A stretch of 62,429 bases of DNA from assembly GCA_030528645.1 (NCBI GenBank), contig JAUMYM010000004.1:1-62429 (forward strand), given 5' to 3'. The position numbers and the translations under genes were made by a program. The first letter of the stretch is position 1; every line of letters begins with the position of its first letter. Origin of the DNA: Erysipelotrichaceae bacterium (GTDB taxonomy: Bacteria > Bacillota_I > Bacilli_A > Erysipelotrichales > Erysipelotrichaceae). Positions 18,275-23,596 of the stretch are shown here, one piece after another. The notes beneath the pieces are model-generated. The model searched no databases and was not told where the DNA came from. It saw only the letters and a list, made by a program, of their open reading frames with translations.

Positions 18275-18292
18275 GCTACTCGAGAGGTTTTT

Positions 18293-19177
18293 ATGGAATT
18301 AATAGTTACGCTTTCTAGTAAGGATATACTAGAGACTTTAAAAGAGAAAAAAATAGATGGTGTTATCGTTGGAGAAGCTTATTTTGCCAATCGATTGAAT
18401 CATTATTTTACAGAAAAAGATATGCAAGAAATTCGTTTGCAATGTAAACAATTAGGATTAAAATATTATGTTTTAATCAATCGTATGATAGAAGAACCTG
18501 ATTTAATATTGTTAGAGTCTTATTTAAAAACATTAAAAACAATGGAAGTTGATGGTATTTATTATAATGATTTAGCTGTATTGCATCTTGCACGTAAGTT
18601 AGATATGTTACATTTACTATCGTTTAATCCGGACACATTGATGACCAATAAATATGATGTTAATTTTTATTTACAACAAGGTATAAACAGTGTAGTGATT
18701 TCAAAGGAAATTACGTTAGAAGAGATTATAGAAATCTTAGATTATAATCCTGGGAAATGTGATTATATTATTCATGGACGATTGAATTTGTCATATACTA
18801 AACGTCCGTTTATTAAAAATTATTTAAAGCATATTGATTCTAATTATGATATAATCTATAACCAACGTTATGATTTAATTGAATCTACACGTCAAGGAAG
18901 TATGCCTGCAATTGAAAATGAACATGGTACCAGTGTATTTACAGAATTTACATTAGCGGGGTTTAAAGAAATGTTGCAGATGAAAGATAACATGAATCAT
19001 TTTATTATCGATGATATTTTTATGAGTCAACAAGAATTATTTGATGTTTTAGATGGATATCAGGCTGTATTGCAAAAGGAAGATCCGGATGTTATATTTA
19101 AACGATTAAGTGAAGCATATCCAGATAGTCATTACCATAGCGGGTACATGTATTTAAAAACTAATTTAGTAAGATAG
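18293..19177 (+). CDS. U32 peptidase-like protein, tRNA 5-hydroxyuridine synthesis subunit (TrhP1/YrrN-like)
   Basis: A 294-aa protein starting at ATG 18293 behind GAGAGG. It is a short, divergent U32-family TIM-barrel protein lacking the cysteine cluster of the larger partner next door. In Bacillus subtilis an adjacent pair of this kind (yrrN-yrrO, TrhP1-TrhP2) makes 5-hydroxyuridine at tRNA wobble U34 using prephenate. Size, order and the 7-nt gap to the partner match that pair. The HGRLNLSYTKRPF stretch corresponds to the region where the partner has its Cys motif. The assignment comes from family and context. Confidence 0.75.
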   Translation: MELIVTLSSKDILETLKEKKIDGVIVGEAYFANRLNHYFTEKDMQEIRLQCKQLGLKYYVLINRMIEEPDLILLESYLKTLKTMEVDGIYYNDLAVLHLARKLDMLHLLSFNPDTLMTNKYDVNFYLQQGINSVVISKEITLEEIIEILDYNPGKCDYIIHGRLNLSYTKRPFIKNYLKHIDSNYDIIYNQRYDLIESTRQGSMPAIENEHGTSVFTEFTLAGFKEMLQMKDNMNHFIIDDIFMSQQELFDVLDGYQAVLQKEDPDVIFKRLSEAYPDSHYHSGYMYLKTNLVR

Positions 19178-19184
19178 GTGAAGT

Positions 19185-20390
19185 ATGAATAAAATTGAAT
19201 TGTTAGCTCCAGCTGGAGACTTACAAAGGTGTAAAACAGCCATAAGATATGGTGCAGATGCGGTATTTATTGGTGGTAAAAAGTTCTCGTTGCGCTCACG
19301 TGCGAGTAATTTTGATATTGAAGCGATTAAAGAAGCTGTAGCGTTTGCAAATGAATATCATGCAGCGATTCATGTTACAGTGAATATTATTCCACATAAT
19401 GAAGATTTTGATGGACTTAAGGAATATTTAAAAACATTGGAAGAAATTGGTGTTACGGCCGTTATTATTGCTTCACCAACCTATATTAAACTGTGTAAAG
19501 AAGTTGCACCAAAATTAGAAGTACATTTATCAACTCAGATGAATACGTTAAATAGTGCGGCTATTGAAGAATATATTTCTTGGGGTGTCGATCGTATTGT
19601 TTTGGCAAGAGAATGTTCTATGGAGATGATTAAAGACATCACTGCAAAATCAAAGAAGCCGATAGAAGCATTCATTCATGGTGGTATGTGCTCAAACTTT
19701 TCAGGAAGATGTACGTTAAGTAATGTTATGACATTACGAGATGCGAATCGTGGAGGATGTGCTCAAAGTTGTCGTTGGAAGTATCACTTATATCAAGAAG
19801 ATGTTGAATTGTCCGATGAAGAAGTATTGTTTTCAATGTCAAGTAAAGATTTACAAGCTTCTTATTTTATTAAAGATATGATTGATGCTAATGTTGCATC
19901 ATTAAAAATTGAAGGGCGCATGAAGTCGAATTACTATATTGCAACGGTCGTAAAGACATATCGCAAGTTAATTGATGAAATTTATCGTGAAAAAGATATT
20001 AGTCAAGAACGTTTGGATTACTATCAAAATGAATTTTCAAAAGCTGAAAATCGTTTAACATGTACAGGGTTTTTAGGTGGAATTCCAGATGAACATGCTC
20101 ATCTATACGATGTCAATGGTAGTGGAGTAACACATGAATTTATCGGTTATATTTTGGATTATGATGCAGATAGTCAACGGGCAAAAGTAGAAGTGCGTAA
20201 TTATTTCTTATTAAATGATACATTAGAAGTATTTGGTCCAAGTATTGATAATCAACGCTTTGTGGCTAGTGACATCCTAGATGAAGAAGGTCAAATCGTT
20301 GAAGTATGTAATCGACCTATGAGTATCGTATATATCAATACACCATTTCCAGTAGCACAACATGACATGATTAGAAGGGTTACCAAATGA
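19185..20390 (+). CDS. U32 peptidase family protein, tRNA 5-hydroxyuridine synthesis catalytic subunit (TrhP2/YrrO-like)
   Basis: A 401-aa protein with the canonical U32 N-terminus (IELLAPAGDLQRCKTAIRYGADAVFIGG), HLSTQMNTLN, and the family signature with four cysteines (HGGMCSNFSGRCTLS...RGGCAQSCRWKY) thought to hold an Fe-S cluster. SLKIEGRMKS follows, then a C-terminal beta-barrel domain. Long annotated as a collagenase-like protease, this group is now known to act in tRNA U34 hydroxylation. A 4-nt overlap couples it to the SpoU methyltransferase gene downstream, which supports an RNA role. Confidence 0.88.
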   Translation: MNKIELLAPAGDLQRCKTAIRYGADAVFIGGKKFSLRSRASNFDIEAIKEAVAFANEYHAAIHVTVNIIPHNEDFDGLKEYLKTLEEIGVTAVIIASPTYIKLCKEVAPKLEVHLSTQMNTLNSAAIEEYISWGVDRIVLARECSMEMIKDITAKSKKPIEAFIHGGMCSNFSGRCTLSNVMTLRDANRGGCAQSCRWKYHLYQEDVELSDEEVLFSMSSKDLQASYFIKDMIDANVASLKIEGRMKSNYYIATVVKTYRKLIDEIYREKDISQERLDYYQNEFSKAENRLTCTGFLGGIPDEHAHLYDVNGSGVTHEFIGYILDYDADSQRAKVEVRNYFLLNDTLEVFGPSIDNQRFVASDILDEEGQIVEVCNRPMSIVYINTPFPVAQHDMIRRVTK

Positions 20391-21106
20391 TATTTGAAGG
20401 AGCAATTAGTGTAAAATCACTACTAGAACATAATTATCATCAAGTAGTAATGCTGTATATTGATAAACAAAAGGATGATCGTAATACTCGATACATCGTT
20501 AAGCTTGCAAATCAAAAGGGCATAAAAATAAACTATTGTACAAGAAGTGAAATCGATGCTTTGGCAAGTGGAAAAACACATGGTGGTATTCTGGCGGAAA
20601 GTATGCCTCGTAGCTATCAAAGGTTTGAAGATATCAAAGGACACAGAATTGCGTTTATTGATGGTATTGAAGATCCATTTAATCTAGGTTATGCGTTTCG
20701 TAGTTTGTATTGTTTTGGTTTTTCAGCTGTAATATTAAAGCGTAGAGATTTTGATGCCATAGAACATGTCATTTTAAAATCAAGTGCGGGGGCATTTAAT
20801 AAATTAGCTATCTATTTTAGTGATGATATAACACAAGATTTAAAGAAGTTAAAAGAAAAACAGTACAAGATTTTTAGTATGCAAAGAAGTGATCAGGCAC
20901 AAAGTATCTATGAAACCGAATATACAAAAAAATTGGTATTAGTTGTTGGTGGAGAAAAAAGAGGGATTGCAAAAGAAGTTTTAGCGCTTAGTGATACATT
21001 AATTTATATTCCTTATGGGAATGAATTTAAAAATGCATTGAATGCGACAAGTGCAATTTCTAGTGTTGTTAGTGAAATTCATCGACAACATTTAATGAGA
21101 AAATGA
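20387..21106 (+). CDS. SpoU/TrmH family RNA 2'-O-ribose methyltransferase (first copy)
   Basis: A 239-aa SPOUT methyltransferase. An N-terminal L30e-like substrate domain (to about residue 75, ASGKTHGGILAE) precedes the knotted catalytic domain. Motif 1 is DGIEDPFNLGYAFRSLYCFG, motif 2 VVGGEKRGI and motif 3 IPYGNEFKNALNATSAISSVV. The usual Asn/Arg positions of motif 1 (DPxNxGxxxR) are kept, but motif 3 has N-A-L-N in place of the usual S-L-N. The target RNA is unknown. ATGA overlap with the U32 gene. Confidence 0.88.
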   Translation: MIFEGAISVKSLLEHNYHQVVMLYIDKQKDDRNTRYIVKLANQKGIKINYCTRSEIDALASGKTHGGILAESMPRSYQRFEDIKGHRIAFIDGIEDPFNLGYAFRSLYCFGFSAVILKRRDFDAIEHVILKSSAGAFNKLAIYFSDDITQDLKKLKEKQYKIFSMQRSDQAQSIYETEYTKKLVLVVGGEKRGIAKEVLALSDTLIYIPYGNEFKNALNATSAISSVVSEIHRQHLMRK

Positions 21107-21134: not shown

Positions 21135-22829
21135 ATGCAAGCATTTTATATGGCAAGGAAAACGGTATTAATAAACTATACAAAAGAATATTTTCAAACA
21201 AGTGATGAGTTGTTATCTTCAGATGGATTCTATGAATTTTTAAAAGCTTTTTTACGTTCTTTAAAAGAAGAAAATACATCTTTATATCAATGGATTTTAG
21301 AAGACCAACAGGAAGAAGATGTTATGGTGGAGCTTATAAAATTATTAAAGATGATGTTAGTTTTAGAGTTAGATGAACTTGACTCACGCTTTTTAAAAAA
21401 TCAAGTATATTTTAATGAAATAGTGGAATTGGCATATAATTTCTGGCGTAGTATGCAACGTTATTCCATTGTATTTACAAAAAATGAATCTGGATTACAA
21501 CTTGCAAACTTTATTGATGCCGATAATCAATTTAATCAAATGGTATTAAATTTTTATCGCTTGATACAACAAAAAGTACAAGGTAGTAAAAATAAAGTGT
21601 ATCGTCAATTGCAAGCAGGTACGAATGCTAGTTTATTGTTAAGAGAATATAGTTGGTATACACCAAGTGAATATAGTGCATTAAAAGATATTCCATTTAT
21701 TAATACGATTATGTTACGTACACCACTCATTATTCATCCTAAAAGTAATAAGCGATTAGGAACATTTACGGAGACAAAAGTACATCCGATGAGTGAGTTT
21801 AATAAAGATGAAGATAAATGGATGTGTTATCCATGTAAAGTTGGAAATCTTTTAACGTATATCTATTTCCATCAAGATTTTACTTCAAGTGTAGTCGGCT
21901 TACCAAATTTATTTGAGCTGGCTAGTGATTTTGAATGTATTGATGCTAAACCGGAATGTATTATTCTTTTTGGTAATAAAGATGGTAGTCAAGATACAAC
22001 TTATTTTTATGATAAGAAGAATGATATTTGGGTTGGGAAAGTATCTTATCAAGATGTCATTGAATACTTTGGTTATCTAAAGAAGATGGCGTTAACGTTA
22101 CATAATTTAAAAGCCATGCAGAAGGGTTGGTTACCAATTCATGGGGCTATGATTAACTTATATTTGAAAGATGGTCGTAAAAAAGGATTGGTGTTAATGG
22201 GAGATTCTGGTGCAGGAAAATCAGAAACGATTGAAGCGATGACTGGGATTGCTAAAGGTGAAATCATTCGTCAAGAGATTATTTTTGATGATATGGGTGT
22301 CTTTAAAATTGAAGATGGTAAGGTAGTGGCTTCCGGAACAGAAATAGGGGCTTTTGTACGTTTAGATGATTTGGATAAGGGTACAGCTTACCGCGATATG
22401 GATCGTTCCGTATTCTTTAATCCTGAAAGCCATAATGCTCGTGTTGTAATACCGGTTGCAAATTATCAAAATGTTACGGCATCCCATCAAGTGGATATGT
22501 TCCTGTATGCAAATAACTATACAGATAAACGTGGTATACGCCAAGTTACAACGTTAGAAGAAGCAAAACCCATCTTTGTTGAAGGAAAGCGTTTTGCACT
22601 AGGGACAACTCAAGAAAAAGGATTAAGTACTACTTACTTTGCAAATCCATTTGGACCGATGCAGATGCAAGAAGTATGTAATCCATTAATTGATAAAATG
22701 TTTAAAACATTATTTGAAACCAATGTATATGTAGGAGAAACCTATACATGTTTAGGGTTAGAAGATAAAGGTAATAATGGAATTGTAGAATCTTCAAGAA
22801 TCTTATTTGAAGAAATAAAAGCTTTATAA
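21135..22829 (+). CDS. Divergent PEP carboxykinase/HPr kinase-superfamily P-loop protein, unknown function
   Basis: A 564-aa protein. ATG 21135 is chosen because GGAGG lies eight bases before it. The N-terminal 330 residues are mostly helical and unassigned. A C-terminal ATPase core has the P-loop GDSGAGKSE (356-364), of the HPr kinase/ATP-PEPCK type, followed by an acidic pair in IIFDDMGVF (385-386). A late stretch, FALGTTQEKGLSTTYFANPFGP, echoes the ATP-PEPCK segment that contacts nucleotide and metal. Too divergent to call a PEPCK. Last gene of the U32-U32-SpoU operon, so a kinase role in RNA or metabolism is possible but unproven. Confidence 0.7.
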   Translation: MQAFYMARKTVLINYTKEYFQTSDELLSSDGFYEFLKAFLRSLKEENTSLYQWILEDQQEEDVMVELIKLLKMMLVLELDELDSRFLKNQVYFNEIVELAYNFWRSMQRYSIVFTKNESGLQLANFIDADNQFNQMVLNFYRLIQQKVQGSKNKVYRQLQAGTNASLLLREYSWYTPSEYSALKDIPFINTIMLRTPLIIHPKSNKRLGTFTETKVHPMSEFNKDEDKWMCYPCKVGNLLTYIYFHQDFTSSVVGLPNLFELASDFECIDAKPECIILFGNKDGSQDTTYFYDKKNDIWVGKVSYQDVIEYFGYLKKMALTLHNLKAMQKGWLPIHGAMINLYLKDGRKKGLVLMGDSGAGKSETIEAMTGIAKGEIIRQEIIFDDMGVFKIEDGKVVASGTEIGAFVRLDDLDKGTAYRDMDRSVFFNPESHNARVVIPVANYQNVTASHQVDMFLYANNYTDKRGIRQVTTLEEAKPIFVEGKRFALGTTQEKGLSTTYFANPFGPMQMQEVCNPLIDKMFKTLFETNVYVGETYTCLGLEDKGNNGIVESSRILFEEIKAL

Positions 22830-22850
22830 GACTGGATAAATACCAGTCTT
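22828..22850 (+). terminator. Probable terminator
   Basis: An 8-bp stem, AAGACTGG/CCAGTCTT, over a 7-nt loop, with a broken T-run after it (TATTTTAT). May allow some read-through into the second SpoU gene. Confidence 0.55.
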
Positions 22851-22876: not shown

Positions 22877-23596
22877 ATGAAAATAGAATCCTTAACAAAT
22901 AGTAAAGTAAAAAGATGGATGAAGTTACATAGTAAAAAAGGGCGTGATGAGGCTAAGCAATTTCTTGTTGAAGAACAACATTTAATTGAAGAATCCTTAG
23001 CCAATAATTCCTTAGAAACATTGTTATATGTTGATAAAAATGTATTTGATTTTAAAGATAGTATTCAGGTAAGTCAAGCCATTATGGATAAATTGAGTAA
23101 ACATGTATCTACCATTCATTACTTAGGTGTTGTTAACAAGCCTAACTTACAATATACTTCAAATCGAATTTTACTTTTAGATGGTATTCAAGATCCTGGA
23201 AATATGGGAACTATTTTAAGAACGGCTGTATCATTTGGCTTTAAAAAGATTTATACTTCTAAGGATTGTGTAGATGTATATAATGAAAAGTGTATTCGTG
23301 CAACACAAGGGGCAATTTTTAAAGCAGATATTATTGTTCAAGATTTAAATGAAGTAGTCAAGTTATTAAAAGAAGAAGGATATATCCTTGTTGGTACATC
23401 ACTAAAACAGGCAATACCGTTAAAAGAATTAAAACAGCAAGAGAAAATGGCGTTTATTTTTGGAAACGAAGGAAATGGTGTACGTGATTCTCTTTTAAAG
23501 ATGACGGATTGTAATGTTAAAATAGAAATGGAAGCATTTGAATCATTGAATGTCGCTGTTGCAGCAGGCATTCTTATGTATGAATGTAGAGGTTAA
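22877..23596 (+). CDS. SpoU/TrmH family RNA methyltransferase (second copy, YsgA-like)
   Basis: A 239-aa SPOUT methyltransferase. N-terminal MKIESLTNSKVKRWMKLHSKKGRDEAKQFLVEE is the typical substrate-binding domain start of YsgA/RlmB-like enzymes. Motif 1 is DGIQDPGNMGTILRTAVSFG, motif 2 FIFGNEGNGV and motif 3 IEMEAFESLNVAVAAGILMYE, all intact, unlike the first copy's altered motif 3. Likely 2'-O-methylation of rRNA. The alpha/beta hydrolase gene follows after 2 nt. Confidence 0.9.
   Translation: MKIESLTNSKVKRWMKLHSKKGRDEAKQFLVEEQHLIEESLANNSLETLLYVDKNVFDFKDSIQVSQAIMDKLSKHVSTIHYLGVVNKPNLQYTSNRILLLDGIQDPGNMGTILRTAVSFGFKKIYTSKDCVDVYNEKCIRATQGAIFKADIIVQDLNEVVKLLKEEGYILVGTSLKQAIPLKELKQQEKMAFIFGNEGNGVRDSLLKMTDCNVKIEMEAFESLNVAVAAGILMYECRG

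Follow-up and report, generated by a model that had tools for sequence, protein, structure and literature searches.

A PEP carboxykinase-like protein with a built-in N-terminal domain in Erysipelotrichaceae, probably a nucleotide-dependent PEPCK of an unclassified branch

The ATP-dependent PEP carboxykinases (ATP-PEPCK, PF01293), represented by Pck of E. coli and by the T. thermophilus enzyme (2pc9), are proteins of two lobes, and the residues with which E. coli Pck contacts its substrate, metal and nucleotide are well established. The PEPCK-like protein described here has in common with them both lobes and the equivalents of Y207, K212, K213, H232, the P-loop, the DD pair, K288 (as an arginine) and R333. 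In contrast to ATP-PEPCK, it presents an identity of only ~14%, a score below the Pfam cut-off, an extra N-terminal domain of ~165 residues, a C-terminus that corresponds to E. coli residue 466 and an adenine pocket (R449/T455) that is not conserved. The HPr kinase/phosphorylase (HprK, PF07475) shares with it the GxSGxGKSE form of the P-loop, the DD pair that follows, an HG motif and a stretch resembling TEIxxFVRL / YxxxDR; however, HprK has ~310 aa and another N-terminal domain and, to our knowledge and in the three HprK sequences that we compared, contains neither the N-terminal lobe of PEPCK nor the Y-x4-KK motif. The PEPCK-like protein appears to have retained traits of the two branches.

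Two further families have to be considered. In other Bacilli, a divergent PEPCK of ~541 aa (L151-L162) belongs to the same superfamily, has a similar length and carries the motifs YFGExKK, HGG, the P-loop and HDD, but it reaches 40-74 bits to PEPCK_ATP, above the cut-off, and is a distinct family that could be matched to our protein only around the active site. This ~541-aa family is present in many Bacilli genomes and shows IRTTIETAFYRNNV near its N-terminus. On the other hand, DUF4914 (PF16260) is a separate uncharacterised family of ~625 aa, which shares with the PEPCK-like protein the KK motif, a histidine 19 residues later, the P-loop, the DD pair and N-x-R, in forms of its own (Y-x5-KK, GASGxGKSE, DDM and NPRV). 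In the profile alignment these positions are Y212, K218, K219, H238 (19 residues on), the P-loop, D306-D307 and N387-x-R389, and the profile-profile comparison of both families gave an E of 1.6e-9 around the active site. Unlike in our protein, the N-terminal domain is in DUF4914 a separate protein or absent. As regards PPi-PEPCK, it is reported to share no evolutionary origin with ATP/GTP-PEPCK (PMC8100219), and the fact that our protein has an intact P-loop speaks against its being of that type.

The gene was found in a window of 62,429 nucleotides (contig JAUMYM010000004.1) of an Erysipelotrichaceae bacterium. The ORF at 21135-22829 (+), with an ATG at 21135 preceded by a Shine-Dalgarno-like ggagg and with the stop reached at 22829, is genuine and encodes 564 aa (P0001), a length that is kept in 107 homologues. 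Upstream and in the same direction there are two U32 genes of the prephenate-dependent tRNA hydroxylase type (18290-19177 and 19185-20390, +) and a SpoU/RlmB-type rRNA methyltransferase gene (20387-21106, +), which shares 4 bases with the second U32 gene and ends 28 bases before the PEPCK-like gene. An intrinsic terminator (22828-22850, +; stem of 8 bp, loop of 7, T-rich tail, -10.2 kcal/mol, z -3.8) is located at the stop codon of the PEPCK-like gene and ends the operon, so that the second SpoU gene, which starts at 22877, probably belongs to another transcription unit. The first-pass annotation had placed the gene at the close of an operon of two U32 genes and one SpoU gene, followed by another SpoU gene, and the gene order agrees with that description.

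By sequence, the likeness to known families is distant, as that annotation had also held. The profile comparison that it had proposed, with PF01293 and PF07475, left both below threshold: PEPCK_ATP scored 19.3 bits (cut-off 26.5) and HprK_C 13.6 bits (cut-off 33.3), and a few relatives of the protein just reach the PEPCK_ATP cut-off. DUF4914 was not reached either (10.4 bits, cut-off 25.7). There was no Pfam match to GTP-PEPCK (PF00821), the NCBIfam GTP-PEPCK model gave merely 19.1 of 504 bits, and the NCBIfam search returned no family name. Searches of the PDB sequences with the single protein and with the family profile gave no match, and a literature search on the PEPCK-like family or DUF4914 found no paper in the library covered.

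The structure prediction and fold search, likewise proposed at first pass, were also run. The AlphaFold model, for which 28 homologues were supplied, reached a pLDDT of 85.8 and a pTM of 0.87, and against the PDB the 50 matches listed by Foldseek (best E 2.7e-15) and the 50 matches listed by VIA were all PEPCKs. The best VIA-align match was 2pc9 of T. thermophilus (Z 18.9), with 353 residues aligned; the identity to PEPCKs was 13-14%. Residues ~168-564 (21636-22826, +) are thus modelled as a whole PEPCK with both lobes. Since the VIA alignment spans model residues 176-564, the extra part is merely the first ~165 residues. It had been stated that over 300 residues at the N-terminus have no known match; this stands by sequence but not by fold: residues ~168-330 are modelled as the N-terminal lobe of PEPCK, leaving just residues ~1-165 with no clear match. 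At the other end, the protein stops at the equivalent of residue 466 of E. coli Pck, which continues for ~75 residues more. The modelled two-lobed fold with its P-loop places the protein in the PEPCK structural superfamily.

To pair the residues of the active site, the family profile was aligned with ordinary as well as divergent PEPCKs (E 3e-8 to 3e-10); conservation was evaluated in the 107 homologues, which span Erysipelotrichales, Clostridia, Lactobacillaceae and Fusobacteria. Y311, K316, K317, H336, S358 and K362 pair with Y207, K212, K213, H232, S250 and K254 of E. coli Pck, and S363, D385, D386, E403, R409 and R436 with T255, D268, D269, E282, K288 and R333; these twelve residues are invariant in 107/107 homologues. 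In the gene, the stretch Y311-FGYL-K316-K317 is encoded at 22065-22085 (+) and the equivalent of the metal ligand H232, H336, at 22140-22142 (+), which lies 19 residues after K317, the same spacing as between K213 and H232. The P-loop GDSGAGKSE (residues 356-364) corresponds to 22200-22226, D385-D386 to 22287-22292, R409 to 22359-22361 and N434-A-R436, the equivalent of N331-T-R333, to 22434-22442 (all +). The first-pass annotation had assigned the P-loop and the DD pair to the HPr kinase/PEPCK superfamily; both are present, in a PEPCK fold. In the alignment, the equivalents of the metal and substrate residues Y207, K212, K213, H232, D269 and R333 are all in place. Opposite the substrate-binding R65, the alignment places T210, with an invariant R207 three residues off. 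The adenine pocket is not conserved in the PEPCK-like protein: R449 has no counterpart, and N547 lies opposite T455.

The N-terminal domain (residues 1-167; 21135-21635, +) is mostly helical in the AlphaFold model. When residues 1-170 were folded alone, pLDDT was 86.2 and pTM 0.82; Foldseek against the PDB gave nothing below E 0.38, and the best VIA matches of this piece were globins with Z 6.5, below the meaningful level for helical folds. A profile search finds a stand-alone ORF of 162-172 aa in three Clostridia genomes; a profile-profile comparison confirms the match (hhalign E 2.5e-8 over 142 columns), and the reverse search agrees. In two of these genomes the ORF ends where a DUF4914 gene begins, and in the third a DUF4914 gene follows in the same direction after ~3 kb; two other genomes have DUF4914 genes with no neighbour of this type. 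Because its distant homologues are separate proteins encoded beside DUF4914, we infer that the domain is accessory, with a regulatory or assembly role. The existence of fused and split arrangements suggests that it may work with a PEPCK-fold enzyme.

A broader proposal, which we put forward tentatively and hold to be possible rather than probable, is that the PEPCK-like family together with DUF4914 makes up a novel PEPCK class with a dedicated helical partner of ~165 residues, fused here and a separate subunit beside DUF4914 in some Clostridia. In many gut Bacillota without PEP carboxylase, pyruvate carboxylase or ordinary PEPCK, such a class could connect PEP with oxaloacetate as a link so far hidden. 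In one locus (L178, 1929-5269, -) the stand-alone N-domain gene is immediately followed by two pyruvate phosphate dikinase fragments, and in another (L177, 4526-9557, +) a DUF4914 gene is followed by apparent 2-oxoacid:ferredoxin oxidoreductase genes; in both loci the neighbours are PEP/pyruvate enzymes. According to a 2026 paper (PMC13209566), heliobacteria owe their anaplerotic CO2 fixation to a "PEP carboxykinase-like protein" that is not further specified and may or may not belong to DUF4914 or to the present family.

The PEPCK-like gene is present in 44/60 related genomes, nearly always as a single copy. With these carriers and with full-length relatives in Clostridia, Lactobacillaceae and Fusobacteria, the sequence family is far beyond chance. 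At E <= 0.001, 101/392 Bacillota genomes gave a match, some of these being weak P-loop matches, and full-length or near-full-length relatives were observed in 15 of the 243 sampled Clostridia genomes. Among the named carriers there are Clostridium, Caloramator, Peptostreptococcus, Mogibacterium, Anaerococcus, Erysipelothrix, Allobaculum, Faecalicoccus, Turicibacter, Companilactobacillus and Cetobacterium. No match to the protein was found in the phage collection searched; the plasmid collection gave one, in Limosilactobacillus fermentum, annotated in GenBank as phosphoenolpyruvate carboxykinase, so automatic annotation already ties at least one member to PEPCK. In three genomes (G229, G394 and G411) full-length members run through two in-frame TGA codons each, which suggests that these hosts read TGA as Trp and that the gene is still kept.

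Another aspect to mention is the presence of other enzymes of PEP and oxaloacetate. In Erysipelotrichaceae (f1), another PEPCK was observed in 0/21 genomes with the gene vs 8/15 without it (Fisher p 2e-4, phylogeny ignored), and in an enlarged sample in 0/40 vs 9/21 (p 2e-5, phylogeny likewise ignored). In the sister family f2, by comparison, 16/22 carriers also have an ordinary PEPCK, and the two genes occur together in 9/28 named genomes. A role as simple substitute for ordinary PEPCK everywhere was considered and is ruled out by this co-carriage; where both coexist, the PEPCK-like enzyme may differ from the ordinary one in direction, regulation or substrate. When an f1 genome carries another PEPCK, the gene for it is often within ~3 kb of a gene for the alpha subunit of oxaloacetate decarboxylase (PYC_OADA; G003:C1, G010:C30, G024:C18 and G027:C25). 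As ordinary PEPCK sits there near OadA genes, lifestyle may explain part of the exclusion in f1. None of the 60 genomes searched has a PEP carboxylase or a GTP-PEPCK. In the genome of the window (97.5% complete) the search found no PEP carboxylase, pyruvate carboxylase/OadA, malic enzyme, GTP-PEPCK or other PEPCK, and the PEPCK-like protein may be the only recognised enzyme between PEP and oxaloacetate in this host.

The fold, the residue alignment, the conservation, the distribution and the gene order rest on computation. On these data the protein is probably a nucleotide-dependent PEPCK of a new, unclassified branch with a built-in accessory N-terminal domain, in line with an early hint at PEP supply: in fold and in active-site residues it agrees with PEPCK. 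The enzyme would depend on a metal and a nucleotide, and would act through the two-lobed fold formed by residues ~168-564. Its cleft is predicted to hold oxaloacetate or PEP together with a divalent metal via K317, H336 and D386, with Y311 and R436, and the nucleotide would be placed on the P-loop opposite, via K362, S363, D385 and R409. The predicted reaction is oxaloacetate + NTP <-> PEP + NDP + CO2, with a presumed substrate and nucleotide; it would probably run in the CO2-fixing direction, yielding oxaloacetate for aspartate, and the N-terminal helices may serve regulation or assembly. Points that speak against this reading are T210 at the place of the substrate-binding R65, the adenine pocket that is not conserved, the early end of the chain, the co-carriage with ordinary PEPCK and the HprK-like central stretch TEIxxFVRL...YxxxDR.

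The main rival to this explanation is a PEPCK-fold kinase that acts, like HPr kinase, on a protein or small molecule and not on oxaloacetate. The P-loop GDSGAGKSE is in fact nearer to that of HprK than to that of PEPCK, the HprK profile matches residues 334-443 (hhalign E 5e-6), a span that takes in TEIxxFVRL and YxxxDR, and f2 carriers mostly have an ordinary PEPCK alongside. Nevertheless, a true HprK is encoded separately in 59/60 genomes (in that of the window at G000:C12), the Y-x4-KK motif and the whole N-terminal lobe that HprK is missing are conserved, and the matches to PEPCK profiles are longer and stronger than those to HprK, so we consider this kinase unlikely. Rather improbable, in our opinion, is a PEPCK-type enzyme that uses some other 2-oxo acid or phosphoryl donor, such as a decarboxylating phosphotransferase of another kind. 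Room for it is left by the extra domain, T210 opposite R65, the missing adenine-pocket residues, the low identity and the ordinary PEPCK of some carriers, but most equivalents of the oxaloacetate and metal contacts are invariant and with PEPCK spacing, and in f1 the gene and ordinary PEPCK are mutually exclusive. A catalytically dead, regulatory homologue is the least probable reading: a few genomes do contain a related paralogue whose motifs are altered, whereas the key residues of the main family are invariant in all 107 members. This divergent paralogue, of ~483 aa, was found in three genomes from the same family as the window (L163 348-1796, -; L164 359-1822, +; L165 417-1799, -); it is without the full N-terminal domain, and by alignment has K317 changed to E, R436 to Y and an altered P-loop. 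It is possibly a non-catalytic partner or regulator.

The remaining alternative is the one that the gene order had suggested at first pass, a kinase or ATPase that takes part in RNA modification together with the U32 and SpoU proteins. The PEPCK-like gene is probably co-transcribed with the SpoU gene here, being co-directional, 28 bases behind it and before the terminator, and the order is repeated in part of the Erysipelotrichaceae. The neighbourhood survey proposed at that stage was carried out: a U32 gene lies <=3 kb from the PEPCK-like gene in 11/19 Erysipelotrichaceae genomes, some of the unlinked cases being on short contigs, but in 0/22 f2 genomes that carry both gene types. In a wider sample of 60 loci with >4 kb upstream, the linkage appeared in 14/35 Erysipelotrichales-like loci and 0/25 others. 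Moreover, U32 proteins are encoded in 58/60 genomes, with or without the PEPCK-like gene, and in several relatives a prolyl-tRNA synthetase is at the place of the SpoU gene. Neighbours common to distant lineages were looked for around the PEPCK-like gene and none was conserved. The U32/SpoU linkage is, then, local synteny and not a conserved functional unit. As it is confined to some Erysipelotrichaceae, and the fold is that of PEPCK, RNA modification was rejected as the main reading; we regard it as very improbable, and the protein is probably not an RNA-modification enzyme.

The family is widespread and overlooked, and probably a new branch within the known PEPCK enzymes. The step between PEP and oxaloacetate governs the synthesis of aspartate and succinate and the fixation of CO2 in fermenting gut bacteria. 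In models of Erysipelotrichaceae and some Clostridium species based on Pfam or NCBIfam this step would be recorded as missing, despite a conserved, single-copy protein with the PEPCK fold. If active, the enzyme would fill this metabolic gap, offer a testable function for DUF4914 and show a PEPCK working with a partner domain; its significance would be greater should DUF4914, with the shared domain, turn out to be one class with the PEPCK-like family.
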